Part shown: positions 4,222-29,709 of the stretch, piece by piece
How positions within the stretch are numbered: the stretch's first letter is position 1
How the letters are laid out: the number at the start of each line of letters is the position of its first letter
Source: a bacterium
GTDB lineage: Bacteria > Elusimicrobiota > Elusimicrobia > UBA1565 > UBA9628
Direction: 5' to 3'
Length of the DNA stretch: 63,223 nucleotides
Assembly (NCBI GenBank): GCA_021782205.1
Contig: JAJXVH010000012.1
Span: 1 to 63,223, forward strand
Position numbers and translations under genes: made by a program
The notes under the pieces: model-generated
What the model was told of the DNA's origin: nothing
Seen by the model: the letters and a program-made list of their open reading frames with translations, nothing else
Database searches by the model: none

Positions 4222-4245
4222 GCGTTGCGCGGAGAGTGGGAACGA

Positions 4246-4707
4246 GTGCACGACATGACTGAAAAAAATACGAAAAGCGCTCTGGCGGAATTTTTTGCAC
4301 ACGACCATGACGCGCTCGACGTCCACCTGGATTTGATTGATTTCGACGACCCGTCCAGCGCTTTGCCCGCCCTGAGCGAATTCCATCGGCGTCTGGAGCG
4401 GCACATCGTGTGGGAGGAGGACGTTCTATTTCCGGCCGCGCGCCGTGTCGCTCCCGGCTACATCGATGGGCCGATCGACGTGATGCGCCGAGAACATCGT
4501 GAGATCCGCGCGCGTAAAGCGGAGGCCCTGGAACGGTTGCGCGGCGGCGACGGCGCCGGCGCGCGCGAGCGCATCGGCGTGATGCGTGCCGTGATGAGAG
4601 AACACACGGCCAAGGAGGAGCGAGTGCTCTATCCGCTCTGCGACCAGCTTCTCTCCGACGCTGAGGCGGGCCGTATTCTCAGGCTGCTGGAATCTTCTCC
4701 GGCCTGA
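4246..4707 (+). CDS. Hemerythrin-domain protein
   Basis: A small cytoplasmic four-helix protein that should bind a non-heme di-iron centre and O2, or take part in O2/NO protection. The expected iron ligands appear in order: HDHDALDVH, then FHRRLERHIVWEED (H and E), then REHREI, then REHTAKEERVLYP. The start is uncertain: GTG 4246 has GGAG about 11 bases upstream, ATG 4255 lacks a clear ribosome site, and ATG 4225 lies too close to the likely promoter. The gene is divergent from nrdJ, and its 3' end overlaps the end of the convergent radical SAM gene by 29 bases. A role in shielding oxygen-sensitive radical SAM enzymes is only a guess. Confidence 0.88.
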   Translation: MHDMTEKNTKSALAEFFAHDHDALDVHLDLIDFDDPSSALPALSEFHRRLERHIVWEEDVLFPAARRVAPGYIDGPIDVMRREHREIRARKAEALERLRGGDGAGARERIGVMRAVMREHTAKEERVLYPLCDQLLSDAEAGRILRLLESSPA

Positions 4708-5659
4708 GCGCGGCGGCACTCCGGCGGCGTCGCCGCGCTAGCCCGCGGCGGGAGATCGTCTCCTGCGTGCCGCAGGAGCAGAGATAGACGCCCAGCGTGC
4801 GGCAATTCTTCGCGGCAAACAGCAGAAGCTGGAGACAGCTCTCCAGGCTGCGCGCGGTGGGGCGCCAGAGCAGGTGAGTCGACTGTGCGACATCCTTGGG
4901 GCGTTCTCCTTCGGCCAGTACGCGCTCGTTGTTCTCGGCGCACAGGAACAGCTCGTGAATGTTGAGGTGCGGCACGCCCAACGCGTCGAGATCCAGGACC
5001 ATAGCCTTAAGCTTGGGCATGTCCTCGGGCACGACCGGAATTTCGACGGCGACTTCTTCGAAAATCTCGCGCGCCCGCCTCACCGGGGTCAGATCGTAGT
5101 CGCGGGCCGCCGCGTCGAAGCGGATCGAGTCCAGGCCCGCGTCCTTCAGGCGGCGCAGCAGCGCCGCGTCGGCGCGGTCGCCGTTGGTGTAGAGGTCCAC
5201 GCGCGGCGGCTGCGGCATGGCCTTCAGCGCCGTCAGGATGGCCAGCACGCGTTCCGGAAACAAGAGCGGCTCGCCGCCCGACAGGCCCACGCTACGCAGC
5301 CCGAAGCGCGCGACGATCTCGGGCGCCTCGCTTGGCGTATCGATGGGAATGCCGTGCACGACGAGTTCGTCCTTGCGCGGCTTCTGATTGAAGCAGAAGA
5401 AGCAGTCGCGCGTGCACAGTCCGGTGACGTACAGGTTCGTGCCCTTTCCGGCCAAGCACGGCTTGCAGCCGGCGGGCAGTCCGCGGGTAAACAAAGTCAT
5501 GCTGGCCGCGTCGCCTCGCACTCCGGCCACGCGCAGAAGTGCGAGCAAGGCCTGGACGCGCTCGACCTGCTCGGGTTCCGGCTCGATGCCGGGCGCGACG
5601 GTGGAACGCGCCGCGCGGCGCGCGTACCACGACAGGTCGTCGTTTTCCTTGAGGCTCAC
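4679..5659 (-). CDS. Radical SAM protein paired with tyrosine phenol-lyase
   Basis: A 326-residue radical SAM enzyme. The CxxxCxxC cluster site is at residues 82-89 (CTRDCFFC), followed by LSGGEPLLFP, which binds the SAM amino group. A further pair of cysteines (GCKPC, residues 65-68) precedes the cluster, and a CSC pair follows near the C-terminus, so an extra metal site is possible. The start codon overlaps the end of the tyrosine phenol-lyase gene by four bases, so the two are translationally coupled. The substrate is unknown; the close link suggests an aromatic amino acid or phenol product, or a partner step in the same pathway. It resembles the activase-like branch rather than the SPASM peptide-modifying branch. 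Confidence 0.85.
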   Translation of the reverse strand: MSLKENDDLSWYARRAARSTVAPGIEPEPEQVERVQALLALLRVAGVRGDAASMTLFTRGLPAGCKPCLAGKGTNLYVTGLCTRDCFFCFNQKPRKDELVVHGIPIDTPSEAPEIVARFGLRSVGLSGGEPLLFPERVLAILTALKAMPQPPRVDLYTNGDRADAALLRRLKDAGLDSIRFDAAARDYDLTPVRRAREIFEEVAVEIPVVPEDMPKLKAMVLDLDALGVPHLNIHELFLCAENNERVLAEGERPKDVAQSTHLLWRPTARSLESCLQLLLFAAKNCRTLGVYLCSCGTQETISRRGLARRRRRSAAALRPEKIPAA

Positions 5660-7050
5660 GCGGCGATCTTGATCGGGAGAGGCTCGAAGCGCGCCTGGAA
5701 GAAGCGCAGGTGTTTGGGCTCCTTGACGAAGCGCAGTCCAGGGAGGCTCGCCCTGCGGCGGTGGAGCGCGCCGATTTCGCGCGCGACGTAGTCCAGGTGC
5801 GTCTGCGTGTAGACGCGCCGCGGAAGGGTCAGGCGCACGAGCTCCAGCTCCGGGTGGCGGTTGCCGCCCTTGGCGTCGCGGCCCGCGGAGACGACGCCGC
5901 GCTCCATGGCGCGCACGCCCGTGGCCTCATAAATCCACGCGGCGAGGGCCTGGGCCGGCAGTTCCTCAGGGCCTAGATGCGGCAGGAAGGCGTTCGCATC
6001 GACGAACACCGCGTGGCCGCCGAAAGGCTTGACCACGGGCACGCGCTCGGCTTCCAAGCGCGCTCCCAGATAGGCGACTTGCGCCAGACGGTGTTCGATC
6101 CACTCGTCTTGGACCATCTCGCGTATGCCGACGGCAAGCGCTTCCAGGTCGCGCCCGGCCAGGCCGCCGTAGGTGTGCAGGCCCTCGAAAAGCACGCACA
6201 GGTTCTGGGCCTTTTCGCACAGTTCGGCGTCGTGCGTGGCCAGGAAGCCGCCGATGTTGACGTAGGCGTCCTTCTTGGCGCTGACCGCGATCGCGTCGAC
6301 CAGCGCGCACATCTCGCGCAGAATGACCGCGACGGGCTTGCCGAGATAGGCTTTCTCGCGGGCGCGGATCATCGCGGCGTTTTCCACGGCGCGAGCGCCG
6401 TCCATGACCACGCGCACGCCGTGGCGGCGGCAAAGTTCGGACGTTTTGCGCAGATTCTCCAGGCTGACCGGCTGGCCGCCGGCCATGTTCACGGGACAGC
6501 CGACGGCGACGTAGGCGACGTTCTTGGCACCGACGCGTTGGATGAACGCCTCAAGCTTTTTGAGGTCCACGTTGCCCTTGAACGGCGCCTCGTCTCGGGG
6601 ATCGTGCGCCTCATCGACGATGACGTCCTCGAAGATGCCGCCGGCCAATTCAATGTGCGCGCGCGTGGTCGTGAAATACATGTTGCCCGCGACGTACTGC
6701 CCAGGCGTGATCCAGGACTTGGACAGCAGATGCTCGGCGCCGCGCCCTTGGTGAGTCGGGACCACGAATTGGAACCCGTAGACGTCGCGAATGGAGGCTT
6801 CCAGGCGCTCGAAGCTGCGGCTTCCGGCGTACGCCTCGTCGCCGACCATCATTGCCGCCCACTGCGCGTCGCTCATCGCGTTCGTGCCCGAGTCCGTCAG
6901 CAAATCGATGTAGACGTCGCGGCTGTTAAGAAGGAAAGTATTCCAGCCTGCGTCCTTGAGGCGGGCTTTGCGCTGGGCCTCGGGGAGGAGGCTGATGGGT
7001 TCGATCATCTTGATCTTGTAAGGTTCGGGGACGAGGGGGATCTCTTGCAT
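5656..7050 (-). CDS. tpl: Tyrosine phenol-lyase (beta-tyrosinase)
   Basis: A PLP enzyme of the beta-eliminating lyase family that splits tyrosine into phenol, pyruvate and ammonia. The 464-residue length fits the family. TDSGTNAM, GDEAYAGSRSF, PTHQGRGAE and GNMYFTTTR are conserved, and the PLP lysine is in SAKKDAYVNIGG (about residue 260). Tyrosine phenol-lyase is favoured over tryptophanase because the segment AMERG keeps the arginine (residue 384, Arg381 in the Citrobacter enzyme as I recall) that recognises the phenol ring; tryptophanase has AVEIG here. I chose ATG 7050 because the N-terminus (QEIPLVPEPYKIK) then aligns with known family starts; earlier ATGs add only a non-conserved tail. 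It forms a two-gene operon with the radical SAM gene that follows. Confidence 0.85.
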   Translation of the reverse strand: MQEIPLVPEPYKIKMIEPISLLPEAQRKARLKDAGWNTFLLNSRDVYIDLLTDSGTNAMSDAQWAAMMVGDEAYAGSRSFERLEASIRDVYGFQFVVPTHQGRGAEHLLSKSWITPGQYVAGNMYFTTTRAHIELAGGIFEDVIVDEAHDPRDEAPFKGNVDLKKLEAFIQRVGAKNVAYVAVGCPVNMAGGQPVSLENLRKTSELCRRHGVRVVMDGARAVENAAMIRAREKAYLGKPVAVILREMCALVDAIAVSAKKDAYVNIGGFLATHDAELCEKAQNLCVLFEGLHTYGGLAGRDLEALAVGIREMVQDEWIEHRLAQVAYLGARLEAERVPVVKPFGGHAVFVDANAFLPHLGPEELPAQALAAWIYEATGVRAMERGVVSAGRDAKGGNRHPELELVRLTLPRRVYTQTHLDYVAREIGALHRRRASLPGLRFVKEPKHLRFFQARFEPLPIKIAA

Positions 7051-7186: not shown

Positions 7187-9145
7187 ATGTCGGAGTTGAG
7201 CCGCTGGCGTTCGGGCGTGGCCGGGGCGGCCGCATTGCTCGCCGCGTTGGCGTTCTTGCCCGCCGCGTACGCGTCCGACCTGAGGGGCTCCGCCGATGAC
7301 GCCGCTTTTCTCAGAGCCGCGCGCGGCGTGTTGTGGTCCGACCACGTGGATTTACGCGGCGACGGCGGCTGGATTCTACGCACGTCGGGACTGGATGAAG
7401 GCGCGGTCATCCGCGTCTTGATCGGAGCGCTGGGCAGCGCCAAGACCAGCCAAGCCGTTGAAGCCGCCGCGCTTTTGGGGGAGATCGGTCCGGACGCTTC
7501 CGCGTCTCTTCCTCGCCTCATCGACGAAGTGCTTTACGGCAAAGACGCCGACCGCCGCGCCGCTTGCGCCCGCGCGCTGGGCTTCGTCGGAACCGTCGAT
7601 GGCTCGGCCATCGTTCCGCTCCTGTCGGCGCTCAGAGATCCGGACCCGTTCGTGCGCTTTTCTGGAGCGCGCGCGCTGATGCGAGTTGGAGGACGTTCCG
7701 CGTTGGTTCGGGCCGCGCTGGAATCCGCGCGCAAGGACGTCGATGCGCGCGTGCGTCTGGCGGCCGGCGGCGCGGCGGCCGCGGGGGCTGCCGCCCCTCC
7801 AGCGTCGGCGCAGGGGCCTTCGAACCGCCCGGCGGTTATCCTTATTCTCGGGGAAGGTCTGGGTTGGGGGCCACTACAGCTGCTGCACGATGAGCTTGTC
7901 CTTGAAGGGGCTCCTTCCGCGCTGGGGGATATGCTCGCCGAAGGCCGCACGGCTTACTGCGAAACGACTCCTCTGGGAAACCTGGTGGCCGAGTCGGGTG
8001 CGGGATCCTCGGCGTTGGCGACCGGGCGCAAGACGGAAAATCACAGGCTGTCGGAGCTGGCGGACGGCGAGCGTCCGGCGACGATTCTGGAACTGGCGCA
8101 TCGCGCCGGATGGGGAACCGGCCTCGTCTCGACGGGCCGAATCACGCAGGCCGGGCCGGCCGCTTTCCTGTCGCATTTGAGGGAGCGCGACGACGAGTAC
8201 GAGATTGCGCGTCAATTTGTGGACTCTGGAGCGGAGGTGATGCTGGGCGGCGGGCGCGGACGCTTCACGCCGTCCGAGTTGGAGCGCGCGGAGTCGGAAG
8301 GCTACGAGGTTCTTTTCGACGCGCGCCAGCTCGCCTCGCTGCCGCCGACGAGCCGCGGATTGCTGGGCCTCTTCGCCGATGGAGATCTGCCGTACGCCAT
8401 CGATCGCGACGCGAACCGCCCCGGAAGTTTTCCGAAGCTGGCCGACATGGAACACCTTGCGCTCACGCGGCTGTCGCGTGACGATCGGAGTTTCGTTCTG
8501 GTCGTCGATTCGCGGCTGATCGATGAGGCCGCTCACTATCACGACGCGGCGGCCGTGCTCGCGGAGATGAGGGAGACGGACCACGCGGCGAGAGTCGCTC
8601 TTGATTATCGTCGTACGCATCCCGGCACCCTGATTCTTGTGACGAGCAATCATGAGACCGGCGGCTATGGGATGGAGTATCGCGCCAACACCGCCAATTG
8701 GGGGGGAGGAGAGCAACTGCGTCGCATCGCGGAACAAACGGCGTCATTGTCGTCCCTGTTGAGTGAAGCACACGCCCGGGCGGGGGCGGGCGGATTGCCG
8801 GGCGCGGCGCAGATACGCGAGGTCGTCACGCCGCATCTCGCGGGCGACGTCGTTCTTCGCCCTTCCGACTGGGCGGCCGTCGCCGCGGCGCTGACCATCG
8901 GTCCCAAAAAGCGTCCATTCTCCTATAGCCCCGCCGTGCATGCGCTGGCGCGGGCGTTGGAGCCTTACTACTTCGCGAGTTGGGGCACGGGAACGCATTT
9001 GAGCAACCCCGTGCCGTGCTTCGGCGTCGGTCCGGGGAGCGAGCGTCTGCGGGGGATGCTGGACGACACGGAGCTATTCCAAATCATGAAGTCCGTTTTG
9101 GACGAGGCCGCCGTTACCAATAGCCATGCGAACGCAGCGCCTTGA
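7187..9145 (+). CDS. Secreted alkaline phosphatase-family protein with N-terminal HEAT-like repeats and altered metal ligands
   Basis: 652 residues. A signal peptide (about residues 1-29, ending AAYAS) is followed by two or three HEAT-like helical repeats (residues 60-190), then a PhoA-type alkaline phosphatase domain. The nucleophile serine is at residue 270 (AESGAGSS). Compared with PhoA, a metal-binding Asp is Glu at 223 (LGEGLGWG instead of GDGMGDS) and the Asp of the DH motif is Asn at 488 (TSNHETGG). The middle site (LIDEAAHYHD) and the last histidine (GTGTHLSNP) remain. It may be a weakened or re-purposed phosphatase. The start has GGAG only two bases away, but the signal peptide supports it. 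The 3' end overlaps the convergent gene by 32 bases. Confidence 0.8.
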   Translation: MSELSRWRSGVAGAAALLAALAFLPAAYASDLRGSADDAAFLRAARGVLWSDHVDLRGDGGWILRTSGLDEGAVIRVLIGALGSAKTSQAVEAAALLGEIGPDASASLPRLIDEVLYGKDADRRAACARALGFVGTVDGSAIVPLLSALRDPDPFVRFSGARALMRVGGRSALVRAALESARKDVDARVRLAAGGAAAAGAAAPPASAQGPSNRPAVILILGEGLGWGPLQLLHDELVLEGAPSALGDMLAEGRTAYCETTPLGNLVAESGAGSSALATGRKTENHRLSELADGERPATILELAHRAGWGTGLVSTGRITQAGPAAFLSHLRERDDEYEIARQFVDSGAEVMLGGGRGRFTPSELERAESEGYEVLFDARQLASLPPTSRGLLGLFADGDLPYAIDRDANRPGSFPKLADMEHLALTRLSRDDRSFVLVVDSRLIDEAAHYHDAAAVLAEMRETDHAARVALDYRRTHPGTLILVTSNHETGGYGMEYRANTANWGGGEQLRRIAEQTASLSSLLSEAHARAGAGGLPGAAQIREVVTPHLAGDVVLRPSDWAAVAAALTIGPKKRPFSYSPAVHALARALEPYYFASWGTGTHLSNPVPCFGVGPGSERLRGMLDDTELFQIMKSVLDEAAVTNSHANAAP

Positions 9146-10262
9146 TCAGGGCGGGAGAAGCCGGCTCCGGCCTACCGACGACGCCGGCGTCGACGTCGCG
9201 GATGTGGCGCAGCAGCCGTTGAGTGAGGTCCAAGGCCTTCTCCGGGTACTCGTCGGCGCGGTCATGCGTCTCGTCCGGATCATTTTTTAAATCATAAAGT
9301 TTCGCGGTTCCAGACGATTTGTCGTAGACCAGCTTCCATCCATCGTGGCGAAGCGAGAACTTTCGGGGGCCTGCATCCATCGTCCCCGCGACCGCGAAGA
9401 CGTCCCGCCGCGTTGGGCGTCGATCGACGGACAGCAGTCTCAGCGGTGCTCCCGAAAAAGCCGGTTCGGCGGGAAGCCCGGCCCAGTCGAGTAAGGATGG
9501 AGCCACATCGATGAGGCGGACGTCGCTCCTGATTCGGCCGGGGTGGACGTCGGGCAGCCACGCGAGCAGGGGCACGCGCAGCGCGCGATCCGATAGGGAC
9601 GGCGCGCCTGGGGCGCCGGCGTCGGATGTCAGGACCACGATGGCGCGACGCAAAGTCCCATCGCCGTTCCAGCGCCGCCAAAGCGTCCCAAATTCCAAGG
9701 CCGATTCGGGGGAGCTCGCCGAGGCACGGAGGAAGAGGAAGAACGGCTCATCGCGGTGGGAACGCATCCAGCGCGAAGATTCCTCGAAAAGGCCGTGCAA
9801 TGTTGCGGTCGCGGCGGCGTTCTCGTAGTGGTCGAATCCGGCGGGCGCTCCCAGCGCCGGACCGACGGTAAAAAACGCGGTGGCGTAGCCGTCGCGCCGG
9901 AGCAGCTCCGGGAGAGTCGCCGTTCCGGTCGAAAAAGCCGTGCTTCCAAATCGGACTGGGCTGGACGGAACGTAGGCGGATGTCAGCAACGACAACGCGT
10001 TCGTCTCCTTGCTGTCGCTGGGGACGAAGCACTCATCGAAGCGGACGGCGCGCGCGGCTGCGGCGGACGGAGTGGGCTGTCCGGCGTCGAGTCCATCGAT
10101 ATCCAAGAGGATGAGGTCTCGACGGACCTCCGCCCGCGGCGCGGCGGCGCACGGCCAAGCCCAGAATACAAGCGCATGCAACGCGGTCGCGAGTGTCCAG
10201 GCGCGGCGCGTGATCCGGGAGGGCGCAAAACAAACAGAGGGCGTGATATGGATTTCGTCCAT
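9114..10262 (-). CDS. Sulfatase-like (alkaline phosphatase superfamily) protein, degenerate active site
   Basis: A short member (382 residues from this start) of the sulfatase fold: LILLDIDGLD near the N-terminus, then a stretch matching the sulfatase nucleophile region (ETNALSLLTSAY), then RVPLLAWLPD, IDVAPSLLDWAG and the C-terminal KLVYDKSSGTAKLYDLKNDPDE typical of the family. The Cys/Ser formylglycine motif CxPxR is absent, a Thr sits near that position, and the usual DHG is SDAGA, so the metal site is changed. A hydrophobic segment ending in WPCAAA looks like a signal peptide. ATG 10262 is chosen because it puts that segment close to the N-terminus. It ends in HGYW, much like the sulfatase-like protein at 29708, which ends in RGYW. 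Confidence 0.7.
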   Translation of the reverse strand: MDEIHITPSVCFAPSRITRRAWTLATALHALVFWAWPCAAAPRAEVRRDLILLDIDGLDAGQPTPSAAAARAVRFDECFVPSDSKETNALSLLTSAYVPSSPVRFGSTAFSTGTATLPELLRRDGYATAFFTVGPALGAPAGFDHYENAAATATLHGLFEESSRWMRSHRDEPFFLFLRASASSPESALEFGTLWRRWNGDGTLRRAIVVLTSDAGAPGAPSLSDRALRVPLLAWLPDVHPGRIRSDVRLIDVAPSLLDWAGLPAEPAFSGAPLRLLSVDRRPTRRDVFAVAGTMDAGPRKFSLRHDGWKLVYDKSSGTAKLYDLKNDPDETHDRADEYPEKALDLTQRLLRHIRDVDAGVVGRPEPASPALIKALRSHGYW

Positions 10263-15698: not shown

Positions 15699-16250
15699 GT
15701 GAGCGCCAAGTCCATCATGGAACTGAACGTGGACGCACGGCTCTATCCGCTGGAGGCCGTACAGGCGGCTGCGTATACATTCACGGACAGGGTGTTCGTC
15801 AAGATCGCTATTCGCGGCGAAAACGCGTTCACGGTCCGGCTGACGCCGAAGGAGGACTGCGCCGCTCCCCATCTTCTTCCGGACCTTTTTGAAAACGAAC
15901 TTCTGCATGAGGCGTTGCGGCTCAAGATTTCACGTGCGAACCAAAAAATACGCGAGTATGTCGTGACAAAAGCACTCGTCAGCGCCCAGGCGCCTGCTTC
16001 GGCGCCTGCGGCAGCGAGCGAGGGCTGTCCGGAGTGCCCGCCCCAAGCGGAGAATCCGCCGCTCGATCCCGCGCTTGAGAGGGATATCGCGACGCTGCTT
16101 ACGGAGATTGAAAACGCAGGAGCGCCTGGCGCGGATCCTCTCGGCGTGGCTGTTTCCTGGGAGGAGAAATACGAGGAGAAGGCGGCCGCTGTCGCGCCGG
16201 TTCAGCACAAGAGCGCGCGCAAAACCGGTCGGAAGGCGAGGTCCGCGTGA
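15699..16250 (+). CDS. hxsD: His-Xaa-Ser system protein HxsD, with a C-terminal extension
   Basis: The first 95 residues match the small HxsD family that accompanies His-Xaa-Ser peptides: ELNVDARLYPLEAVQAAAY, FVKIAIRGENAFTVRL, then FENELLHEALRLKISRANQ. Its biochemical role is not known to me; it may be a peptide-binding or assembly factor. Usual members are near 100 residues, so the last 85 or so are extra: a linker, a CPECPP motif, and an acidic to basic tail ending in KTGRKARSA. The GTG start has AGGAG six bases upstream. The end overlaps hxsB by four bases. Confidence 0.75.
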   Translation: MSAKSIMELNVDARLYPLEAVQAAAYTFTDRVFVKIAIRGENAFTVRLTPKEDCAAPHLLPDLFENELLHEALRLKISRANQKIREYVVTKALVSAQAPASAPAAASEGCPECPPQAENPPLDPALERDIATLLTEIENAGAPGADPLGVAVSWEEKYEEKAAAVAPVQHKSARKTGRKARSA

Positions 16251-17719
16251 CCCTCTCGTCCGGCGTCGTCGATCCTGCGCGCTACGACGCGGCGCGCGGC
16301 GGATTCCTGCGCTTTCGACGGCACGGGGCCGGTTATCTCATTACGAACGATTTCGGTCGCTACGCGTTTCTAACCGAGACGGAATTCTCGGCTCTTATCG
16401 AAGGGACTCTTGACGAAGCGGGCCCTTTATATCGTCGCTTATGCGAAGAGGGGTTCATCCGCGACCGGATGGATTTTGAGAAATTAGCGGCCATCTGGAG
16501 AAAGCGCAATCTCTTTCTGTGGCAGGGGCCGAATTTGCATGTGGTGGTGACGACGTTGCGTTGCAATCATCGTTGCCTTTACTGTCAGGCGAATTCGGTC
16601 GATATGAAGAGTCACGAGTGTGACATGAGCCTGGAGACCGCGGCTAAAACCGTGGAGCGAATATTTGAAACGCCCAGCCCGACGGTTACCATCGAGTTTC
16701 AGGGCGGCGAGCCGCTGGCGAACTGGCCGGTTGTCGAATTCATCGTCGACCGCGCGCGGGAAAAGGCCCGTGAGACCGGTAAAGCCGTGTGGCTTAACCT
16801 CGTCTCCAACCTGAGCCTGCTCGATGATGCGAAGTTGGCATTCTTGCTTAAGAACAACGTGAGCGTCTGCACGTCGCTGGATGGTCCGGCCGATCTTCAT
16901 AATCGCAATAGATTGTTCGCAGGCGGCGATAGTCACGCCGAGACGGTGCGCTGGTTCCGTAAGATTCACGTGAAGACCGAGGGGAAGGCGTCCCGCATCG
17001 AGGCCTTGCTGACGGTCACCCGATTCTCTCTATCGCGGCATAAGGACATTGTCGACGAGTACGTCCGTCTCGGCTCGCGGGGAGCGTTTCTTAGGAGCTT
17101 GAGCCCGCTGGGCATGGCGGGCGAGTTGTGGGAAAAAATTGGTTATAGCGCCGATGATTTTCTGAATTTTTACAGGCAGGCTTTCGATTACATCCTGGAA
17201 GTCAACAAGCACAAGCTGTTCGTCGAGCAGACGGCACGCATCTTCCTGGCGAAGATACTGACCGACGAGGATCCGAATTTTCTTGACCTGCGTTCGCCGT
17301 GCGGCGCGGGCGTGGGGCAGATCGCCTACAATTACGACGGCGGGGTCTATACATGTGACGAGGGCCGGATGTACTCCCGCATGGGCGACGAGTCGTTTAA
17401 GATCGGCAGCGTGCATGAGGGCACCTACCGTGAAAGCGTCGAGCATCCGGCGGTCCGTGCGCTCTCAGTGGCTTCCTGCTTAGACAATCAGGTCGATTGT
17501 TCGCGCTGCGCGTATAAGCCCTATTGTGGCGTCTGCCCCATCCAATGCTACGCCGAGCAGGGCGATATCATGGGTCGCATGCCGACCAACAGCCGGTGCC
17601 GCATTCATAAGGGTATTCTCGACCACCTGTTTGAAAAACTGCGGGACCCTGAAAACGAGAAGATATTTCGTGAGTGGCTACGGCCGAGAGAAGAGCCCAG
17701 CGCCTATCAGAGGCTGTAG
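16247..17719 (+). CDS. hxsB: His-Xaa-Ser system radical SAM maturase HxsB
   Basis: A 490-residue radical SAM/SPASM protein. The N-terminal 90 residues (FRRHGAGYLITNDFGRYAFL) look like a peptide-recognition segment of the HxsB family. The radical SAM cluster site is C106, C110, C113 (LRCNHRCLYC), followed by FQGGEPLANW. The C-terminal SPASM region has the expected cysteine series (PCGAGVGQ, YTCDEG, DCSRCAYKPYCGVCPIQC, SRCRIH) for two auxiliary [4Fe-4S] clusters. Family knowledge assigns it to modification of HxsA; the chemistry is not deduced here. It overlaps hxsD and lies 20 bases before hxsA. Confidence 0.85.
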   Translation: MTLSSGVVDPARYDAARGGFLRFRRHGAGYLITNDFGRYAFLTETEFSALIEGTLDEAGPLYRRLCEEGFIRDRMDFEKLAAIWRKRNLFLWQGPNLHVVVTTLRCNHRCLYCQANSVDMKSHECDMSLETAAKTVERIFETPSPTVTIEFQGGEPLANWPVVEFIVDRAREKARETGKAVWLNLVSNLSLLDDAKLAFLLKNNVSVCTSLDGPADLHNRNRLFAGGDSHAETVRWFRKIHVKTEGKASRIEALLTVTRFSLSRHKDIVDEYVRLGSRGAFLRSLSPLGMAGELWEKIGYSADDFLNFYRQAFDYILEVNKHKLFVEQTARIFLAKILTDEDPNFLDLRSPCGAGVGQIAYNYDGGVYTCDEGRMYSRMGDESFKIGSVHEGTYRESVEHPAVRALSVASCLDNQVDCSRCAYKPYCGVCPIQCYAEQGDIMGRMPTNSRCRIHKGILDHLFEKLRDPENEKIFREWLRPREEPSAYQRL

Positions 17720-17739
17720 GCGCGCGGCAGGGGGAGCGT

Positions 17740-18057
17740 TTGAGCAAAAATAAAAAGGGCTTGATACCGAAGGTGAAAAAAGACCTCGCGCGATTTCTCA
17801 CGAGCGAGGAGGGGCAGATTCTTAAAAAAGATGTCCTGAAAGCCGCGACGGTGCTGGGAATATTGGGGGCCGCGATGCTTCATACGGAGGACTTGTTGGC
17901 TCAGGCCCAACACACCAACGCCATTCATAATTCAGGAGGCTCCGTGCCCATGCATGTCAGCCACAGTTCGCACGCGAGCCACGGTTCGCACGGCTCCCAC
18001 GGCAGCCACGGCTCCCACGGCTCTCATGGCAGCCATGGCAGCCATGGGTCCTACTAG
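17740..18057 (+). CDS. hxsA: His-Xaa-Ser repeat peptide HxsA (RiPP precursor candidate)
   Basis: A 105-residue peptide starting at TTG 17740 with GGGGGAG five bases upstream. The leader is Lys-rich (SKNKKGLIPKVKKDLARF), followed by a hydrophobic stretch (LKAATVLGILGAAML), a linker, and a C-terminal tail of eleven triplets: HVS, HSS, HAS and eight HGS, then a final Tyr. Such tails define the His-Xaa-Ser family, whose members are thought to be modified by radical SAM proteins HxsB and HxsC. Serine codons within the repeats vary (AGT, TCG, TCC, AGC, TCT), so the repeat is kept for the protein, not as recent DNA slippage. The hydrophobic stretch could hold it at the membrane. The tail could bind metals; that is inference. 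Confidence 0.85.
   Translation: MSKNKKGLIPKVKKDLARFLTSEEGQILKKDVLKAATVLGILGAAMLHTEDLLAQAQHTNAIHNSGGSVPMHVSHSSHASHGSHGSHGSHGSHGSHGSHGSHGSY
17957..18052 (+). repeat. Tandem 9-base coding repeat for His-Xaa-Ser
   Basis: Eleven 9-base units of the form CAY-NNN-(AGY/TCN) encode the His-Xaa-Ser tail of hxsA. The first three units differ in the middle codon (GTC, AGT, GCG), the other eight encode Gly. Third positions differ between units. Confidence 0.9.
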
Positions 18058-19042
18058 GAGACGTCTTGCTGGGCCGCCCGAGCCACGTGTTGAAAGTCAT
18101 GAAATAATCTCCGGCACCGAGATCCTTCTTCGCACGACCACCGAATGCAACCAGCGTTGCCATTTTTGTTTCCTGCCCCCGGTCCGGCGGAGCTTTGCTT
18201 GGGAAGACATCCTGGGGGCGCTGCGTGAGGTTGCCCGTCGTCCCCAGCCTCCCAAGATTTTGACTCTCTCCGGCGGAGAGCCCACCGCGGATTCGCGTCT
18301 GCCGCGGATATTGACGGCGGCACGCCGCCTCGGCATCCGTCGCTTCGTTCTTCAGACCAACGCCGTCCGGCTGTCCGACGCCAGTTTGCTGGGTCGATTA
18401 AATCGCCTCGGTGTGGAAGGCTATGTCGTTTCATTCCATTCCCATAAGCCAGCGCGTTACGACGAGATAACGAGGAGCCGCGGACAATATTCGCGCGCGG
18501 TCGCAGGGATACGGCGCTTGATCCGTGGTCGATGCCGACTTACGATCAACGTGGTCGTCAACGCGCGGAACTATGAGGACCTGCCTGAATTGGTGGCATT
18601 TCTCGCGCGCCAAGGCGCTGGGAAGAACCGCGCGAAAGAACTCGACGTGTATTTCTCGATGATCAACGAAGCCGGCCATCAGCTCGCGCCGGACTGGGCG
18701 GTCGGCTTAGAGCGCGTCTCGGCGCCGCTACGCCGAGCGCTGGAGGTGTGCGATCAAGCGGGCATCCGTGTGGCTAAGTTCGTCGGCGGCAGCTGCTTTC
18801 CCGTCTGCCTGACGGCTCATCCCGAGCGCTACGCGTGTGAGCGCGCGTTGTCCCAGGAGCGGGTGCGCTACGCGGTGGCCTTCAGCGGTGCGTCCGGCGC
18901 GATCGGGCGCGCCAAACACCCGGACTGCCGCGATTGCGCTTACGATTCTCGCTGCCTCGGAGTTCCCGCGTCGTACGCAACGCATTACGGCGTGGCGGCG
19001 CTGCGCGTGGTGAAAATGAGTCCCTTATGCGCAACAACATAG
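18044..19042 (+). CDS. hxsC: His-Xaa-Ser system radical SAM maturase HxsC-like
   Basis: A radical SAM protein of 332 residues whose ATG lies inside the last codons of hxsA (14-base overlap), so expression is coupled. The cluster site is C35, C39, C42 (TECNQRCHFCFLPP), followed by LSGGEPTADS. A motif SFHSHKPARYDEITRSRGQYSRAVAGIRRL region places it with four other radical SAM genes downstream in this operon. The C-terminus has two Cys groups (GSCFPVCL and CRDCAYDSRC). By position between hxsA and the nitrogenase-like genes I assign it as HxsC, but it could be an ordinary paralog of the downstream radical SAM genes. The end overlaps the NifH-like gene by 16 bases. Confidence 0.7.
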   Translation: MGPTRRRLAGPPEPRVESHEIISGTEILLRTTTECNQRCHFCFLPPVRRSFAWEDILGALREVARRPQPPKILTLSGGEPTADSRLPRILTAARRLGIRRFVLQTNAVRLSDASLLGRLNRLGVEGYVVSFHSHKPARYDEITRSRGQYSRAVAGIRRLIRGRCRLTINVVVNARNYEDLPELVAFLARQGAGKNRAKELDVYFSMINEAGHQLAPDWAVGLERVSAPLRRALEVCDQAGIRVAKFVGGSCFPVCLTAHPERYACERALSQERVRYAVAFSGASGAIGRAKHPDCRDCAYDSRCLGVPASYATHYGVAALRVVKMSPLCATT

Positions 19043-19851
19043 TCGTTTTTGGTAAGGGAGGCATTGGAAAATCCACGATCTCAGCCAATCTGAGCACCGT
19101 CTACGCGCGGCAGGGGCTGAAGGTCCTCCATATCGGATGCGACCCGAAGCATGATTCCACCCTGGGACTGGTCGACGGCGGCCTTATTGAAACGTTCATG
19201 GAGAAGTATTCCCGCGTGTTCGGCGTGCGCGACCGCGCACAATTGAAGCCGGGGGACCTTCTGGTTCGGGGACGTCTCGGCATCGACTGCGTCGAGGCCG
19301 GAGGCCCCGAGCCGGGGGTCGGCTGCGCGGGCCGAGGCATCTCGCTGATGCTTGAGGCGCTGCAGGACTTGGGCATGCTGGAATCCGGAGGCTACGACGC
19401 GCGCATTTTTGATGTGCTGGGAGACGTCGTTTGCGGCGGGTTCGCGGCGCCGCTGCGCAAGGGCTTTGCGGAAAAAATAGTGATCGTGGTTTCCGAGGAA
19501 ATGATGGCCCTCTACGCGGCCAACAATATCGCGAAGTCGGTAAAAACGTATGCGTCGAATGGGGTCTATCTGGCGGGACTTGTGGCTAATCTCAAGGACG
19601 GTGTCGAAGGGCGCGAGCGCATCGAGCGCTTCGCCTCGATCCTCGGCACGCGGGTCCTCGAGTACGTGCCGCGAGACGCCGCCGTTCGTGAGGCGGAGTA
19701 CGCGCGCGAACGCACGGTCGTCGAGCGTTCTCCCAATTCTGCGTTCGTTCGGAGCCTTGAGTCCTTGGCGAAGAAGTTGCTGGCGGTGCGGCGGGAAGAC
19801 TGCCCGATTCCCAAGCCGATGGACGACCGGAGGTTCTATGCCGACTGGTAA
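19027..19851 (+). CDS. NifH-like (nitrogenase iron protein/BchL family) reductase
   Basis: A 274-residue P-loop ATPase of the NifH/BchL/CfbC family that should pass electrons with ATP hydrolysis to the NifDK-like partner. The Walker A motif is at residues 9-17 (GKGGIGKST), CDPKHDST is present, and both cysteines that hold the [4Fe-4S] cluster between two subunits are conserved: C100 (EPGVGCAGRG) and C136 (GDVVCGGF). The length is normal. It overlaps the radical SAM gene before it and the NifD-like gene after it by 16 and 14 bases. Standard nif genes (nifB, nifEN) are not present here, so it is not a nitrogen-fixation gene in the usual sense. Confidence 0.9.
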   Translation: MRNNIVVFGKGGIGKSTISANLSTVYARQGLKVLHIGCDPKHDSTLGLVDGGLIETFMEKYSRVFGVRDRAQLKPGDLLVRGRLGIDCVEAGGPEPGVGCAGRGISLMLEALQDLGMLESGGYDARIFDVLGDVVCGGFAAPLRKGFAEKIVIVVSEEMMALYAANNIAKSVKTYASNGVYLAGLVANLKDGVEGRERIERFASILGTRVLEYVPRDAAVREAEYARERTVVERSPNSAFVRSLESLAKKLLAVRREDCPIPKPMDDRRFYADW

Positions 19852-21631
19852 GACCGTCGACTCGCCGTCGGTTCCGGAGTCGACGCAAAGACATGTCACC
19901 GCCGGCCCTCGGGCGCGGGCGGCGTTTGAAATGCTACTGGGTCTGAGCCGGTCGATGGTGGGCTGGAGATTGGACGGACTGTGTATCGAGGGCGAAGTCG
20001 ACGCGAGTATTCGTGTCGGCCTAACGAACGGACGCAGGCGCATCGCTTTTCATCTGTTGACGCCTGACTCCGGCGCAGTGCCGTTGAGCTCCGGTCATTT
20101 CACCCTGGCGGCGCAATATCCCGGTTCACCGGGCGCGCAAAAGCTCCTAAGCGCGTTTGCGGCCAGGCTACATGGTCAGAGGATGCACGACCTCACCCGC
20201 CTGATCTTGGGCGATGCCGACTCCTTCAGCCAACGCGTGCGGCCCGGGTCCGGGGGCGATCGTGTCAAGGTGCCGTGCATTGGACAGCCCATCAGCCTTT
20301 TGGAGGACGGCTGGCGCAATTTCTTTGCGGACCAAGACTTCGAAGTTCTGCTGGGCGTTCCGGTCTGTTCCACGGAGAAAACCGTGAACGTCGAATACGC
20401 GGACCTGGAGTGCTTCTATTCCCGCCCGAAGCTTTCCTTCGGCAAATGGACGTTTCTTGATTGGCCGGAGCAGAGCGACGACGGCGTGCGCGGCGTCGGC
20501 GGTGAAGCCGGAGGCGCCAACATCGTGGCCGAATTGGAGGAGCGTGACATGATCATGGGTACCGGCGAGCGAGCCGAAGCCCTGGTTGAGAGCGTCCGCG
20601 CGCGGGCCGAGGCCGGAAATTTTATTCTTTTCACGCATTTGTGCACGCCGATCGTGATGGGCGAGGACCTTTCCGGGCTGGCGCGCCGCTGCGAGGAGGC
20701 GGTCGGGGGAAGTGCTGTGCGCTGGAGCCAGAAAGACCGCGATGAGAACGACAACTTTGGAGCGTATTTTCGCGCGCTGGCGGAGAAGCCTGGTTTTTTC
20801 AAAGACCCATGCGATCGCGAAGCGGTCAATCTTTTCCACTTTCCAAAGCCGCTGCGGGACCGCGAACTGCGTCCGTTTCTCACGGAGTTGGGCCTTAAAA
20901 TAAATGTCTGTGCTTTCCCGGATGTGAACTTCCCGGATCTCGAGCGGCTGCCGGAGGCTCTGTGGCAGGTGTTCTGCCAGAGAAGCTCCTACCCGACCAA
21001 GGTCCGGGAGATTCTTACCGGTGCCTCCCGATCGGTCGTCACCGTGCGCGCGCCCTACGGCGTCGAAGGCACGCGTGAGTGCCTTCGCGCAGTCGCGAGC
21101 GCGACGGGTAAAATGGGCGCCTTTGACGAGGCGTGGAGCGTGCGAATGCGGGAGTTCCTGCCCGCGTGGGACGCGTTGCGTGGCGAGGCGTGCGGTCTGC
21201 GGCTGGCGTTCGTCGTTTCCGAGGCGACTCTTCCCAGGCTTTGGACTCTGCGCTACGGACACGGAGCGCCGTTGGCGGCGATGGTCCAGGAGATGGGTTT
21301 CGGCGTCGACATTCTCTACTACGATCTTCATGGCGAACCGCCGCAACATTTTGAGTCGCTCCAGGATGCGCGCATCAGGGTGTTTCGCAGCCCTTGGGAA
21401 TTACGGGAGGCCCTGCGCGACGATGACTTCCATGCCGTGTATTCGGACATCTTCTTCGACCGCCGCCTGAACGACGCGGGCAAAGCGCGGTTTGCAAGCA
21501 GAGATTTCGAGATGGGCCTGGAGGGCGCGCGGCGGACGCTGGAGCGGCTCCTTTCGGTATGCCATCTGCCGTTCTATCGCCGCTACGCCGAGCATCTTTC
21601 CGGTCCACGGGGAAACGATCGTGGCCTGTAA
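19838..21631 (+). CDS. NifD-like nitrogenase component 1 protein with extra N-terminal domain
   Basis: 597 residues, ATG preceded by GGAGG at four bases. Residues about 41-111 form an extra domain not found in NifD (see findings). From about residue 140 a divergent component 1 protein follows: cysteines C147, C177, C192 and C269 (FTHLCTPIVMGEDL, matching the CPIGLIGDD site of NifD), LEERDMIMGTGERAEAL like the NifD VFGG region, and APYGVEGTRECLRAVA like NPFG-type strands. Near the C-terminus LPFYRRYAEHLSGP aligns with the NifD IPFRQMHSWDYSGP segment, but the FeMo-cofactor His is Tyr. The other ligand, Cys275 of NifD, is also missing (ASRSVV). It should reduce some other substrate. Confidence 0.8.
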   Translation: MPTGKTVDSPSVPESTQRHVTAGPRARAAFEMLLGLSRSMVGWRLDGLCIEGEVDASIRVGLTNGRRRIAFHLLTPDSGAVPLSSGHFTLAAQYPGSPGAQKLLSAFAARLHGQRMHDLTRLILGDADSFSQRVRPGSGGDRVKVPCIGQPISLLEDGWRNFFADQDFEVLLGVPVCSTEKTVNVEYADLECFYSRPKLSFGKWTFLDWPEQSDDGVRGVGGEAGGANIVAELEERDMIMGTGERAEALVESVRARAEAGNFILFTHLCTPIVMGEDLSGLARRCEEAVGGSAVRWSQKDRDENDNFGAYFRALAEKPGFFKDPCDREAVNLFHFPKPLRDRELRPFLTELGLKINVCAFPDVNFPDLERLPEALWQVFCQRSSYPTKVREILTGASRSVVTVRAPYGVEGTRECLRAVASATGKMGAFDEAWSVRMREFLPAWDALRGEACGLRLAFVVSEATLPRLWTLRYGHGAPLAAMVQEMGFGVDILYYDLHGEPPQHFESLQDARIRVFRSPWELREALRDDDFHAVYSDIFFDRRLNDAGKARFASRDFEMGLEGARRTLERLLSVCHLPFYRRYAEHLSGPRGNDRGL

Positions 21632-22922
21632 GATCGGCATGCGCATCAATATTCCCTATTTGCAGGGAGCCTACCTCGCGTTCAACGCCGTTCCCGACGC
21701 CTATTTTCTCGGCGACGGACCCAGCTGCATCTTCGACAAGGCCGAGCAAATCCACGGTCGCCACGACCTCTTTTCCACGTTGTTGTCCTGCGACAGCCGT
21801 CACCGCGTTCAGCACACAGGCGTCAACGTCTTTAATATGGCCGGCGACTGCGAGGGCGGCATCGCCGCGTCTCTGCGCAGCATCGCGGACTATCCGGGCT
21901 GCGGCGCGGTGTTCCTGGGTTCGATGCCCATGTGCGCGATCGTGGGAACGGACTATGAAAGGATTCTTCGCGAAGCGCTGGCGACCAAGAATAAGCCGGC
22001 ATTTCTCCTGCCGCGGCGTTCGGCGGTTTCCGGCGATTGGCTAGACGGCTATGCGGGAGTGCTTGAGGCGCTCGCCGTCGGCATGGACCTGGAAGGCGCT
22101 GGCGCGCAGTCCGAGACCGTGGCCCTGGTCGGCTATATGATGGACCGCAACGAAGGCGATCACGGGGGAAACCTTCGCGAACTTGATCGGATACTTCGCG
22201 CGCTGGAATTGCAGCCGGTCTCCATTTGGCTGTCCGGGAAACCGTATGAAGGGTTGCGCGACGTTCGTCGAGCCAGCGCGATCATCTCGCTTCCGCACGG
22301 ACGCAAGGCCGGGCAAGTCCTTGCGCGCCGTCTTGGCGTGAAGCTGGTCGAGGCGGAACTCCCCTTCGGCCTGGAAGCCACGCGGCGTTTCGTGGAGCGC
22401 CTTGGCCGCGAATTCGGCCGGGAGAGACAGGCGCGAGAATTCATCGCGCGCGAATTGGATGAGGTGATTCCGCGGCTGCAGTGGACCGTGCCGCACGCTT
22501 TTTTGAGACGGCGCTTTGCCTTCAGTGGTGATCCGCACTATGCGGCGCGCTTCATCGAGCAGATCGAGGACCTGGGCGGACGCATGGTCGGCACCCTCGT
22601 GTTGGGCGGCGAGCATCATCTCACGCCGGAAAATCGGCAGGAGCTTCAGTGCCGCGTCGGGACTTCGTTCGAGCCCGTGCCCGACGAGGTTCGAGGGGTT
22701 TGGGGGGCAATTTCCTCCGGCGGGGCGGATCTCGTCGTCGGCAGTGCGTTCGCTTTTGACCGCATCGAACGCGGCGAGCGCTGGCTGGAGTTCGGCTATC
22801 CGTCCGAGGACACACATTTCCTGAGAGACGAACCGTTCCTCGGTTTTCAGGGAGCGCTCGCGTTTCTGTCGCGCGCGGCCAATGAGTTGGTCCGGGGTCT
22901 GGGACGGCGAGGCTCCCAATGA
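21621..22922 (+). CDS. NifK-like nitrogenase component 1 protein
   Basis: A 433-residue second component 1 subunit, starting at GTG 21621 with an 11-base overlap with the NifD-like gene; GGGGAAA lies a few bases upstream. The early part resembles the P-cluster half of NifK/NifN/BchB: GDGPSC (C36), LLSC (C57), AGDC (C77) and SMPMCAIVGTDY (C105), matching the C-x-x-x-x-GDD element. Later parts (PHGRKAGQVLARRLGVKLVEAELPFGLEATRRFVERLG) match the conserved C-terminal domain, and GGEHHLTPENRQEL matches the substrate-side region. It probably forms a heterotetramer with the NifD-like protein. A four-base overlap leads into the next radical SAM gene. Confidence 0.8.
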   Translation: MACKIGMRINIPYLQGAYLAFNAVPDAYFLGDGPSCIFDKAEQIHGRHDLFSTLLSCDSRHRVQHTGVNVFNMAGDCEGGIAASLRSIADYPGCGAVFLGSMPMCAIVGTDYERILREALATKNKPAFLLPRRSAVSGDWLDGYAGVLEALAVGMDLEGAGAQSETVALVGYMMDRNEGDHGGNLRELDRILRALELQPVSIWLSGKPYEGLRDVRRASAIISLPHGRKAGQVLARRLGVKLVEAELPFGLEATRRFVERLGREFGRERQAREFIARELDEVIPRLQWTVPHAFLRRRFAFSGDPHYAARFIEQIEDLGGRMVGTLVLGGEHHLTPENRQELQCRVGTSFEPVPDEVRGVWGAISSGGADLVVGSAFAFDRIERGERWLEFGYPSEDTHFLRDEPFLGFQGALAFLSRAANELVRGLGRRGSQ

Positions 22923-24049
22923 GCGGCCCCTCGGGCGTCGAAAAACGGCACTGGGTGCGGCTGACGCGATTCTGCAATCAACGCTGCGTATTTTGCCTCG
23001 ACCGCGAAAGTCAGGACGGGGACCCCCTGTCTCTGGATTCGATCCGTCGCGATCTTGCGGACGGCCGCAGGCAGGGCATGTCACGAGTGGTTTTGAGCGG
23101 CGGAGAGCCCACGATTCACCCGGAATTCATTCAGATCGTCGGACTGGCGCGCGCGCAAGGCTATCGTCATATTCAGGCCATCACGAACGGCCGCCGCTTG
23201 TGCTACCCGGAGTTTTTGCGCGCGGCGGTCGCGGCTGGCGTCGGCGAGCTGACATTCTCCATTCACGGCCATACGCCGGAGTTACACGATCGCCTGACCC
23301 GAGTGCCGGGCTCTTTTTTACAGGCGGTGACGGCGCTACGATCCGCGCTGGCCGTGCCAGGGTTGATCGTGAGCGTGGACGTGGTGATCAATCGCTGGAA
23401 CCTGCCCGTACTGCGTGAGATTCTTGATTTTCACATCTCGTTGGGCGCGCGAGAATTCGATTTGCTGGCGTTGGTCCCTTTCGGCGACGCCTGGAAGAAT
23501 CGCGCGGATCTGTTTTGTGATTTTGAGAGGCCGGAGAATCTGGCCCAATTGCGCCGCGCTCTGGAAGTCAGCCGTCGGCCGGACCTGCACCTTTGGACGA
23601 ACCGGCTGCGGCCGGAGTTCTTGGAAGGATTCGAGTCACTGATTCAGCCGCCCGAAAAAATTCTGGACGAAGTCCGCGGCCGACGGCGCTTATTTGCGCG
23701 GGCGATAAAGGACGGTCGGCCGCCCTCATGCGCCGGAGAGGCGTGCGAGCGCTGCTTCTTAAGCGAATTCTGCCGGGACCTCTCGGCGCTCTTGCACGAG
23801 GGCTCGTTGCCGGCTCGCGTCGGTCCATTGTGCGGCGAGCGGTACGGCCGGCCCAAGCCGTTCGCTTTCGGCCCCGGCGCCCCGGGAATCGAAAGTTTCG
23901 CGCGGTTCTATATCGATTCGCGCTATTACGCGAAAGCGAGCGCCTGCCGCAGCTGCGCCCGTGGCCAGGAATGTGACGGCATGCTCGTCGCGGACATTCG
24001 TGCGAAGGGATTCAAGACGATGGCCCCGATCGAGGCGGATCGTGGCTGA
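22919..24049 (+). CDS. Radical SAM protein 1 of the operon (two Cys-rich C-terminal motifs)
   Basis: 376 residues. The cluster site is C19, C23, C26 (RFCNQRCVFC), then LSGGEPTIHPEF and TNGRRLCYPEF. The motif SIHGHTPELHDRLT-x4-GSFLQA is shared with neighbours. Two C-terminal cysteine groups, CAGEACERCFLSEFC and CRSCARGQECDGM, suggest one or two auxiliary Fe-S clusters, as in SPASM or Twitch proteins that act on peptides. The ATG overlaps the NifK-like stop by four bases. It belongs to a group of five similar radical SAM proteins in this operon. Substrate unknown: HxsA or a small molecule used by the nitrogenase-like complex. Confidence 0.85.
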   Translation: MSGPSGVEKRHWVRLTRFCNQRCVFCLDRESQDGDPLSLDSIRRDLADGRRQGMSRVVLSGGEPTIHPEFIQIVGLARAQGYRHIQAITNGRRLCYPEFLRAAVAAGVGELTFSIHGHTPELHDRLTRVPGSFLQAVTALRSALAVPGLIVSVDVVINRWNLPVLREILDFHISLGAREFDLLALVPFGDAWKNRADLFCDFERPENLAQLRRALEVSRRPDLHLWTNRLRPEFLEGFESLIQPPEKILDEVRGRRRLFARAIKDGRPPSCAGEACERCFLSEFCRDLSALLHEGSLPARVGPLCGERYGRPKPFAFGPGAPGIESFARFYIDSRYYAKASACRSCARGQECDGMLVADIRAKGFKTMAPIEADRG

Positions 24050-28139: not shown

Positions 28140-28158
28140 GCGCTCCCGCGCGCGCGCG

Positions 28159-29013: not shown

Positions 29014-29103
29014 GGCTCACCCCCGAATTCCCCTAGTGTAGCCGCATTGGCCGTCAACATCAAGACCTATGCATTGCAACGATCCATCCCGGCGTCCCAC
29101 GGC

Positions 29104-29709
29104 TTAGCGGCCTACTTCCAGATCGACCGTGTTTGATTCGGCGCGAATATTTCCGGCCGCGTAAACGACGCGGATGCGATACTTCCCGGGCTTCGTAAAA
29201 AAATTCTTGCCGGCAATTTTTCGGAACCGGCTTGTGGGTCCGTCGGGGCGGGTGAGAAGCACTTCGCCCGGCAGCAGCGTAACGTCAAGCGCGGAGCCCC
29301 TTGCGGACACGGCCGGACACGGCAGGGGTTGTTCGGCGTCGCTTGAGTGCATGACGTTGATCAAAAAGTCGCGCTCGCCGCAGAGGCTGGAATCCTTGAT
29401 GAAGGATGGCGGGGCTTCATTGAATACAATCGGGTCTCGACCGATGTTTTTTACCTCCAGCCTATAACGGAAGTCCTCGCCAGTGCGAATGCTGGTTTTT
29501 TCGGAGAGCAGCAATATGCGAAGCGCATGGGCCGGTTGAGCGTATGTCTCCTGGTGTCGTGGCTGAAGCACCAACTCATGGCGATCGGAGGCGCCCGCGC
29601 TCGCGCTTTGGTCCTGAGGAGGCGGTGCAGGCCGACGGCATGCCGACGCGGGGCACAATAGAAAGATTCCCATCCAAACGGAGCGTGTTTGGGGTGCGCA
29701 GGCGGCCAT
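29104..29709 (-). CDS. Probable lipoprotein with Ig-like (proteinase-inhibitor-like) domain
   Basis: About 200 residues. The N-terminus (WMGIFLLCPASACRRP) looks like a lipoprotein signal with Cys after ASA. The body reads RILLLSEKTSIRTGEDFRYRLEVKN, then ALDVTLLPGEVLL and KPGKYRIRVVYAAG, the beta-sandwich pattern of BsuPI-like or bacterial Ig-like domains. I chose ATG 29709; a later ATG at 29673 would give a very short signal. It is divergent from, and overlaps the first codon of, the sulfatase-like gene at 29708, so promoters of each gene must lie within the other. Function unknown. Confidence 0.6.
   Translation of the reverse strand: MAACAPQTRSVWMGIFLLCPASACRRPAPPPQDQSASAGASDRHELVLQPRHQETYAQPAHALRILLLSEKTSIRTGEDFRYRLEVKNIGRDPIVFNEAPPSFIKDSSLCGERDFLINVMHSSDAEQPLPCPAVSARGSALDVTLLPGEVLLTRPDGPTSRFRKIAGKNFFTKPGKYRIRVVYAAGNIRAESNTVDLEVGR

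Follow-up and report, generated by a model that had tools for sequence, protein, structure and literature searches.

A TPL-type lyase gene and a radical SAM gene form a conserved pair in one genus of Elusimicrobiota

Tyrosine phenol-lyase (TPL) is a catabolic enzyme that is used in biotechnology, and lyases of the TPL superfamily can cleave S-substituted cysteines. Among the radical S-adenosylmethionine (SAM) enzymes, NifB and lipoyl synthase have further cluster ligands beyond those of the radical SAM motif. Among the titles and abstract openings listed in our searches of open-access literature, a scope outside which most subscription journals fall, none dealt with a coupling of TPL to a radical SAM enzyme. 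Here, we describe such a coupling in a stretch of 63,223 nucleotides from a metagenome-assembled genome of an uncultured bacterium of the Elusimicrobiota (contig JAJXVH010000012.1 of assembly GCA_021782205.1; hereafter the window). The gene of a TPL-type lyase, which would depend on pyridoxal 5'-phosphate (PLP), lies directly ahead of the gene of an uncharacterised radical SAM protein (Table 1). As an earlier note on this DNA had reported, the two genes overlap by four bases. These bases, GTGA, hold both the stop codon of the lyase gene and the start codon of the radical SAM gene.

Conservation of the pair in the genus

The earlier note had proposed a neighbourhood survey of TPL genes, and such a survey, made within Elusimicrobiota, shows that the coupling is real, conserved and not restricted to a single strain. 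The lyase gene stands directly ahead of the radical SAM gene in ten genomes, namely that of the window and nine of the 18 other genomes of its genus (G003, G004, G005, G006, G007, G009, G010, G012 and G017). At all ten loci the gap at the junction lies between −4 and +1 nt, while the identity of the lyase ranges from 70 to 94%. Four junctions have a 4-nt overlap with a GTG or ATG start codon, and at two others an ATG follows one base past the stop. At the junctions of L081, L082, L084 and L020 there is no nearby ATG, GTG or TTG at the conserved start of the radical SAM protein; a CTG, read from CTGA with a 4-base overlap with the lyase stop, is here the likely start codon. The gene caller missed the partner at L095, L082, L084 and L067, which were counted as pairs from our reading of the junction. 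A tight junction kept at ten loci indicates that the pairing is not due to chance. Functional coupling of the two genes in this genus is well supported, and the overlap suggests that they are also translationally coupled.

The radical SAM gene is more widespread than the pair. It was found in 34 of the 58 genomes searched, the window's own included, and in 15 of the 18 other genomes of the genus. No lyase of the same clade was found in G002, G014, G016 and G018, which do have the radical SAM gene (in G016 it reaches the end of a short contig). G013 has both genes, apart from each other; in G015 the radical SAM gene is divergent and the lyase lies elsewhere. Neither a radical SAM gene of this family (E 1e-20) nor a lyase of the clade was found in G001, G008 and G011.

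In the lyase tree, the pairs all fall in a single clade of 11 lyases, within which adjacency was lost once, and among the genomes searched it occurs in this genus only. This pattern might also be explained by hitch-hiking, where a single ancestral juxtaposition in the genus was retained by chance. We consider this improbable, since the flanks of the pair have changed while the pair and its junction persisted: depending on the subclade, the flanking genes encode a hemerythrin and a ribonucleotide reductase, a histidine kinase with MoeA and MoaA, or others. Moreover, other radical SAM neighbours recur in the lyase clade (see next section). Apparent fusions of TPL with the radical SAM protein (frames of 719–791 aa in G003, G007 and G017) were rejected as shadow frames of the lyase.

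The neighbours of the pair in the window are a hemerythrin-domain gene and an alkaline-phosphatase-like gene, the latter read from its open reading frame. The hemerythrin-domain gene converges on the radical SAM gene, and the 3' ends of the two overlap by 29 nt (4679-4707). A similar gene lies close to the pair in G010, G012 and G006. The hemerythrin gene is probably not part of the two-gene unit.

Table 1. Positions of the gene pair, its convergent neighbour and selected codons and motifs in the window.
Feature	Position	Strand	Remarks
Lyase coding sequence, TPL-type PLP beta-eliminating lyase	5656-7050	-	ATG start, 464 aa
Radical SAM coding sequence, uncharacterised family	4679-5659	-	GTG start, 326 aa
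Stop/start overlap, 4 nt, GTGA	5656-5659	-	Lyase TGA stop and radical SAM GTG start
Hemerythrin-domain gene, convergent	4225-4707	+	PF01814, 66.4 bits
R384 codon of the lyase (TPL R381)	5899-5901	-	Alignment to Citrobacter freundii TPL
K260 codon of the lyase (TPL K257)	6271-6273	-	Alignment to C. freundii TPL
GCKPC, residues 64-68 of the radical SAM protein	5456-5470	-	Candidate auxiliary-cluster ligands C65 and C68
CTRDCFFC, radical SAM motif (C82, C86, C89)	5393-5416	-	All three Cys invariant across the 46-sequence alignment
CSC (C294-S295-C296)	4772-4780	-	C294 candidate third auxiliary ligand

Elsewhere in the window, the forward strand has five further radical SAM genes within 16247-31285 (16247-17719, 17954-19042, 22919-24049, 25918-27129 and 27096-28139). 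The same region also encodes a sulfatase (29708-31285) and, at 24977-26197, a type IV leader peptidase domain.

The lyase clade and its neighbours

The window lyase matches PF01212 at 261.6 bits, above the cut-off of that family. Its score on the TPL equivalog TIGR02618 (673.1 bits) stays below the cut-off of 720.7, and the same holds for three other members of its clade (695.0–708.4 bits). Hence, 'TPL-type' is a safer name than the 'tyrosine phenol-lyase' of the earlier note, which is backed by the active site and the placement in the tree but not by the curated model. In an alignment with C. freundii TPL, 249 of the 449 aligned positions are identical. The equivalents of F36, Y71, T124, N185, D214, R217, K257, Y291, M379, R381, R404, F448 and F449 are kept, and the exceptions among the compared active-site positions are T216 (Ala) and M288 (Leu). 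We take K257 to be the Schiff-base lysine of PLP, and R381 to bind the ring hydroxyl of tyrosine and thereby select this substrate; Y71, T124, R381, F448 and the other compared positions presumably have roles in contacting PLP or the tyrosine ring. The earlier note was thus right that the tyrosine-selecting arginine is retained, on this understanding of its role. The equivalent of R381 is kept in all 24 clade members compared, and so are those of T124, F448 and F449. The clade also has fixed or nearly fixed changes, which are A181G, T183P and T216A, and M288L, P289H and S290T in the loop before Y291. Possibly, these changes have shifted the substrate of the clade. Overall, the residues retained make it likely that the lyase acts on a tyrosine-like substrate.

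A maximum-likelihood tree of 36 rows places the window lyase within an Elusimicrobiota clade of 25 (support 100/99), which includes one fragment, from G044. This clade is separate from the TPLs of enteric bacteria and Fusobacterium and distant from the four tryptophanase-type rows, which split off at 100/100, with the window lyase on the TPL side. A second homologue in the window's own genome (C60, 46% identical) groups with the tryptophanases, below the cut-off of TIGR02617. The survey of lyase genes covered Elusimicrobiota, two annotated enterobacterial plasmids and one Fusobacterium record that is unannotated at the locus. In addition, a plasmid search returned lyase relatives in 82 records, all less than 60% identical, and a scan of viral contigs gave 14 loci with relatives of 52–56% identity, one of which is included in the tree.

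Within the clade, 21 of the 25 lyase genes have an immediate radical SAM neighbour. This number includes the ten pair loci; at the 15 other loci, the neighbour of 11 lyase genes is a different radical SAM gene. An RlmN-like radical SAM protein fused to an isochorismatase adjoins the lyase in L101, L102 and L174. B12-binding-type radical SAM genes adjoin it in L173, L176 and L178 and on both sides in L175, while L176 has a SPASM-type radical SAM gene downstream as well. MoaA is the neighbour in L169 and L181. The neighbour in L167 has PapB as its best model and points away at a distance of 5 nt, and that in L168 has HxsC4 as its best model and lies on the opposite strand with overlapping ends. 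The proteins of L178 and L174 score 24.7 and 28.2 bits, just under the Pfam Radical_SAM cut-off of 29.5, and match BchE/HpnJ-type and RlmN-type models, respectively, again under the cut-offs. The proteins of L101 and L102 were assigned by their likeness to L174 and the motif CPVGCRFC, and the upstream gene of L176 by its likeness to L178 and its motif. No radical SAM neighbour was found at L170, L171, L172 and L177, nor beside the divergent lyases outside the clade (L179, L180 and L222). At L172 the gene caller missed the lyase, and the locus was judged from the frames on either side. G032, which belongs to another genus, and a close relative (L101) have the gene order radical SAM, RlmN-like/isochorismatase and lyase.

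The RlmN/Cfr-like isochorismatase fusion lies at 4210-5817 in L101, at 8811-10439 in L102 and at 8012-9640 (-) in L174. At some loci, a thioredoxin-reductase-like flavoprotein is encoded beside it.

As a control, we examined 38 tryptophanase-type loci of relatives with 72 neighbours, comprising 39 of the 51 matches minus L209, whose gene was not called. None of these neighbours has a CX3CX2C motif, which gives 0 of 38 loci with a radical SAM neighbour, compared with 11 of the 18 lyase loci other than the pairs (Fisher P = 2e-7). On the lyase side we left out L182, which holds the opposite end of the broken G044 gene. Of the 35 proteins encoded beside the lyases at the 18 loci, Radical_SAM matched 10 (E 1e-4). 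For the tryptophanase neighbours, it was not among the best 25 of 56 families, below which a weak single match is possible. The tryptophanase contexts are conserved, with 16 members beside a rotamase, and hence the control has fewer than 38 independent points. We also grouped the lyase loci by hand into 14 contexts, seven with and seven without a radical SAM neighbour. This outcome has a binomial probability of about 5e-8 at the background rate, or of 2e-4 if 10% per locus is assumed. We summed the background by hand as 707 Radical_SAM matches in about 52.8 Mb, a rate that is perhaps slightly low because RlmN-like proteins score weakly.

Of 294 Elusimicrobiota genomes, 23 have the lyase (E at most 1e-140) and 35 have the radical SAM gene (E at most 1e-40); both are present in 17, only the lyase in 6 and only the radical SAM gene in 18. 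A Fisher test of this co-occurrence leaves kinship among the genomes uncorrected, which inflates the association.

The B12-binding-type neighbours raise the question whether the lyase might make phenol as lower ligand of a phenolyl cobamide for B12-dependent radical SAM enzymes. The radical SAM genes that adjoin the lyases of L173, L175, L176 and L178 match the B12-binding domain with E near 1e-7, a match that was scored individually for L175 and L178 only and falls just under the Pfam cut-off. Yet PF02277, which we take to be the family of the lower-ligand phosphoribosyltransferase, was found in only two of the 24 genomes searched (G010 and G017), and not in that of the window. This explanation is disfavoured, and its chances appear minimal.

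The radical SAM protein and its relatives

The radical SAM protein of the window matches PF04055 at 51.4 bits (cut-off 29.5) and has the CX3CX2C motif. C68 of the GCKPC sequence sits 14 residues ahead of C82. The earlier note had called this extra cysteine pair unusual, which it is not within its family: C65, C68, C294 and S295 are as invariant as the three radical SAM cysteines in an alignment of the window protein with 45 others (26 to 92% identical to it), whereas C296 is replaced by Thr in some. GCKPC is therefore a family trait rather than an oddity. The invariance of three cysteines beyond the radical SAM motif suggests an auxiliary iron-sulfur cluster, which C65, C68 and C294 probably help to bind. 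A CxxC upstream and a Cys-Ser at the C-terminus are typical of COG2108, to which the protein may belong. In the literature searched, this label occurs in one paper, a gut-flora study by its title. Some radical SAM matches contain in-frame stops, all at the very C-terminus, where the match runs on past the gene, and there is no sign of selenocysteine.

An AlphaFold2 model of the protein has a mean predicted local distance difference test (pLDDT) score of 88.2 and a predicted template modelling (pTM) score of 0.87. Foldseek ranked lipoyl synthase first (5exi, E 3.8e-7, query TM 0.47) and NifB third (E 8.2e-6, query TM 0.42). VIA-align placed viperin-like enzymes first (Z 15.1), with NifB at 14.0 and pyruvate formate-lyase (PFL)-activating enzyme at 13.9. 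In total, 376 of 1000 chains reached a Z of at least 8 against the model, in line with the partial TIM-barrel fold. The chains with the top matches are presumably all radical SAM enzymes. These matches represent a superfamily-level likeness of the modelled fold and name no function. Family models were no more specific. Among the best 25 of 26 NCBIfam matches none scored above its cut-off; TIGR02666 for MoaA gave 28.5 bits versus 284.05, with no match to Mob_synth_C, and NF038283 for viperin gave 27.7 versus 180. The N-terminal CX4CX5C, which we take to be the auxiliary-cluster motif of lipoyl synthase, is missing, since C65 and C68 are the only cysteines upstream of the radical SAM motif.

The likeness to lipoyl synthase, together with the cleavage of S-substituted cysteines by lyases of the superfamily, might suggest that the lyase cleaves cysteine or an S-substituted cysteine and feeds sulfide to a sulfur-inserting radical SAM enzyme. 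However, the retention of the T124, R381, F448 and F449 equivalents throughout the lyase clade argues against such a substrate, if their presumed roles are correct. Furthermore, the query TM is low, viperin-like enzymes lead in VIA-align and the lipoyl-synthase motif is absent. Sulfide delivery is very unlikely.

A scan of named genomes with two peptide patterns, which misses distant members, returned 60 loci of the radical SAM family. By title, these are Elusimicrobia/Elusimicrobiota or 'bacterium', Coriobacteriia-type, one Anaerolineae and a weak Omnitrophota match. The plasmid search found no relative of the protein. A tblastn search with the lyase matched 11 of the 60 sources, the window included. 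At loci without the lyase, the radical SAM enzyme can evidently work without it. In L103-L106 (Elusimicrobiota) the radical SAM gene follows a gene from the cluster that contains an AhbD-like member in L102, which scores under the AhbD cut-off. Seventeen loci (L120-L136) are Coriobacteriia-type or 'bacterium' (16) or Anaerolineae (one) by title. A gene of a DMSO-reductase-family cluster lies near the radical SAM gene in nine of them (L122, L123, L125, L127, L128 and L133-L136), the assignment to this family of molybdenum enzymes having been tested on the member from L136. In L120, a nitrate-reductase-delta-type chaperone is encoded two genes upstream, and a molybdopterin-like gene, by our own reading, further up. 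The other seven loci had no such gene or were not resolved. These molybdenum-oxidoreductase neighbourhoods are a lead to the function of the radical SAM family.

Two loci titled Bordetella parapertussis and Burkholderiales (L093 and L097) carry copies 57% identical to the window protein. They look like misbinned or mislabelled metagenome-assembled genomes.

The molybdenum neighbourhoods also bear on how the pair is explained. Nearly as likely as our best guess (see next section) is a shared anaerobic regulon, where an ordinary fermentative lyase degrades tyrosine while the radical SAM enzyme acts for an unrelated system that is sensitive to oxygen, for example by maturing or serving a molybdenum enzyme, and both are co-transcribed only because both are needed without oxygen. 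This would be consistent with the varied families of the clade's radical SAM partners, MoaA included, with the MoeA and MoaA genes that follow the pair in G003 and G007, and with the DMSO-reductase-family genes near radical SAM relatives in Coriobacteriia. Conversely, tryptophanase-type genes, which likely serve anaerobic catabolism as well, had radical SAM neighbours at none of their 38 loci, and the junction of the pair has remained tighter than a regulon requires.

A possible pathway and its comparison with known systems

Our best guess, which is tentative, is that the lyase and the radical SAM enzyme share an anaerobic aromatic pathway and act on the same aromatic compound. The two genes would then form an operon with translational coupling, which this Elusimicrobiota lineage probably uses in the absence of oxygen. 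Judging from its active site, the lyase would most likely split tyrosine or a ring-modified tyrosine into a phenol, pyruvate and ammonia. The earlier note had suggested that the pair may release phenol, supply ammonia or limit tyrosine for a radical SAM step. The radical SAM enzyme would carry its canonical cluster and an auxiliary cluster on C65, C68 and C294, and the two enzymes would work on tyrosine- or phenol-derived compounds in a common pathway. The lyase clade may serve as a module, which in relatives is combined with different radical SAM enzymes, such as the RlmN-like and B12-binding ones. In favour of this reading are the persistence of the pair and its junction amid differing flanks, the conserved catalytic and phenol-pocket residues of the lyase, the invariant extra cysteines, the co-occurrence of the two genes across Elusimicrobiota, and the enrichment of radical SAM neighbours in the lyase clade (21 of 25, against 0 of 38 tryptophanase-type loci).

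Several results weigh against this pathway. The pair arose once, in one genus, and the lyase stays below the curated TPL cut-off. The radical SAM gene stands without a full-length lyase of the clade in 18 of the 35 genomes that have it, although two of these (G039 and G044) hold sub-threshold fragments. Of the L102-L106 and L120-L136 loci, tblastn found the lyase at L102 only, and distant relatives in Coriobacteriia and Anaerolineae that often lie near molybdenum oxidoreductases without a lyase imply that the radical SAM reaction need not involve tyrosine or phenol. Finally, one partner of the lyase clade is MoaA, which acts on guanosine triphosphate.

A bolder version, which we regard as rather unlikely, makes the clade a dedicated radical SAM partner. 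Running forwards or in reverse, the lyase would remove or add the side chain on a phenolic or tyrosine scaffold that various radical SAM families modify, giving unusual phenols or non-standard aromatic amino acids. Such an anaerobic aromatic pathway would be of a mix-and-match kind, with the window pair as one of its versions. If the lyase clade indeed travels with several radical SAM families, this would suggest a kind of anaerobic chemistry on aromatic compounds for which our searches gave no described pathway. The pair would also offer a handle on a radical SAM family that lies near molybdenum oxidoreductases in another phylum, and both genes are short, which leaves the question open to experiment.

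Compared to known systems, the lyase comes closest to TPL (TIGR02618; C. freundii, PDB 2ez1), with 55% identity, the PLP lysine and the equivalents of Y71, T124, N185, D214, R217, R381, R404, F448 and F449. It differs in its score below the curated cut-off and in the clade's changes at 181, 183, 216 and 288-290. Plasmid-borne TPLs of Phytobacter and Pantoea adjoin an aromatic amino acid transporter, whereas none was seen beside the window lyase. Tryptophanase (TIGR02617 / PRK13238) belongs to the same PLP superfamily, and the genome's own C60 falls in its group; the window lyase instead branches on the side of the TPLs and retains their arginine. Lipoyl synthase, NifB, viperin-like and PFL-activating enzymes are only 10–22% identical to the radical SAM protein in the fold matches, have another pattern of extra cysteines and gave no match at the level of a family member, but as its top fold matches they have the radical SAM barrel in common with it.

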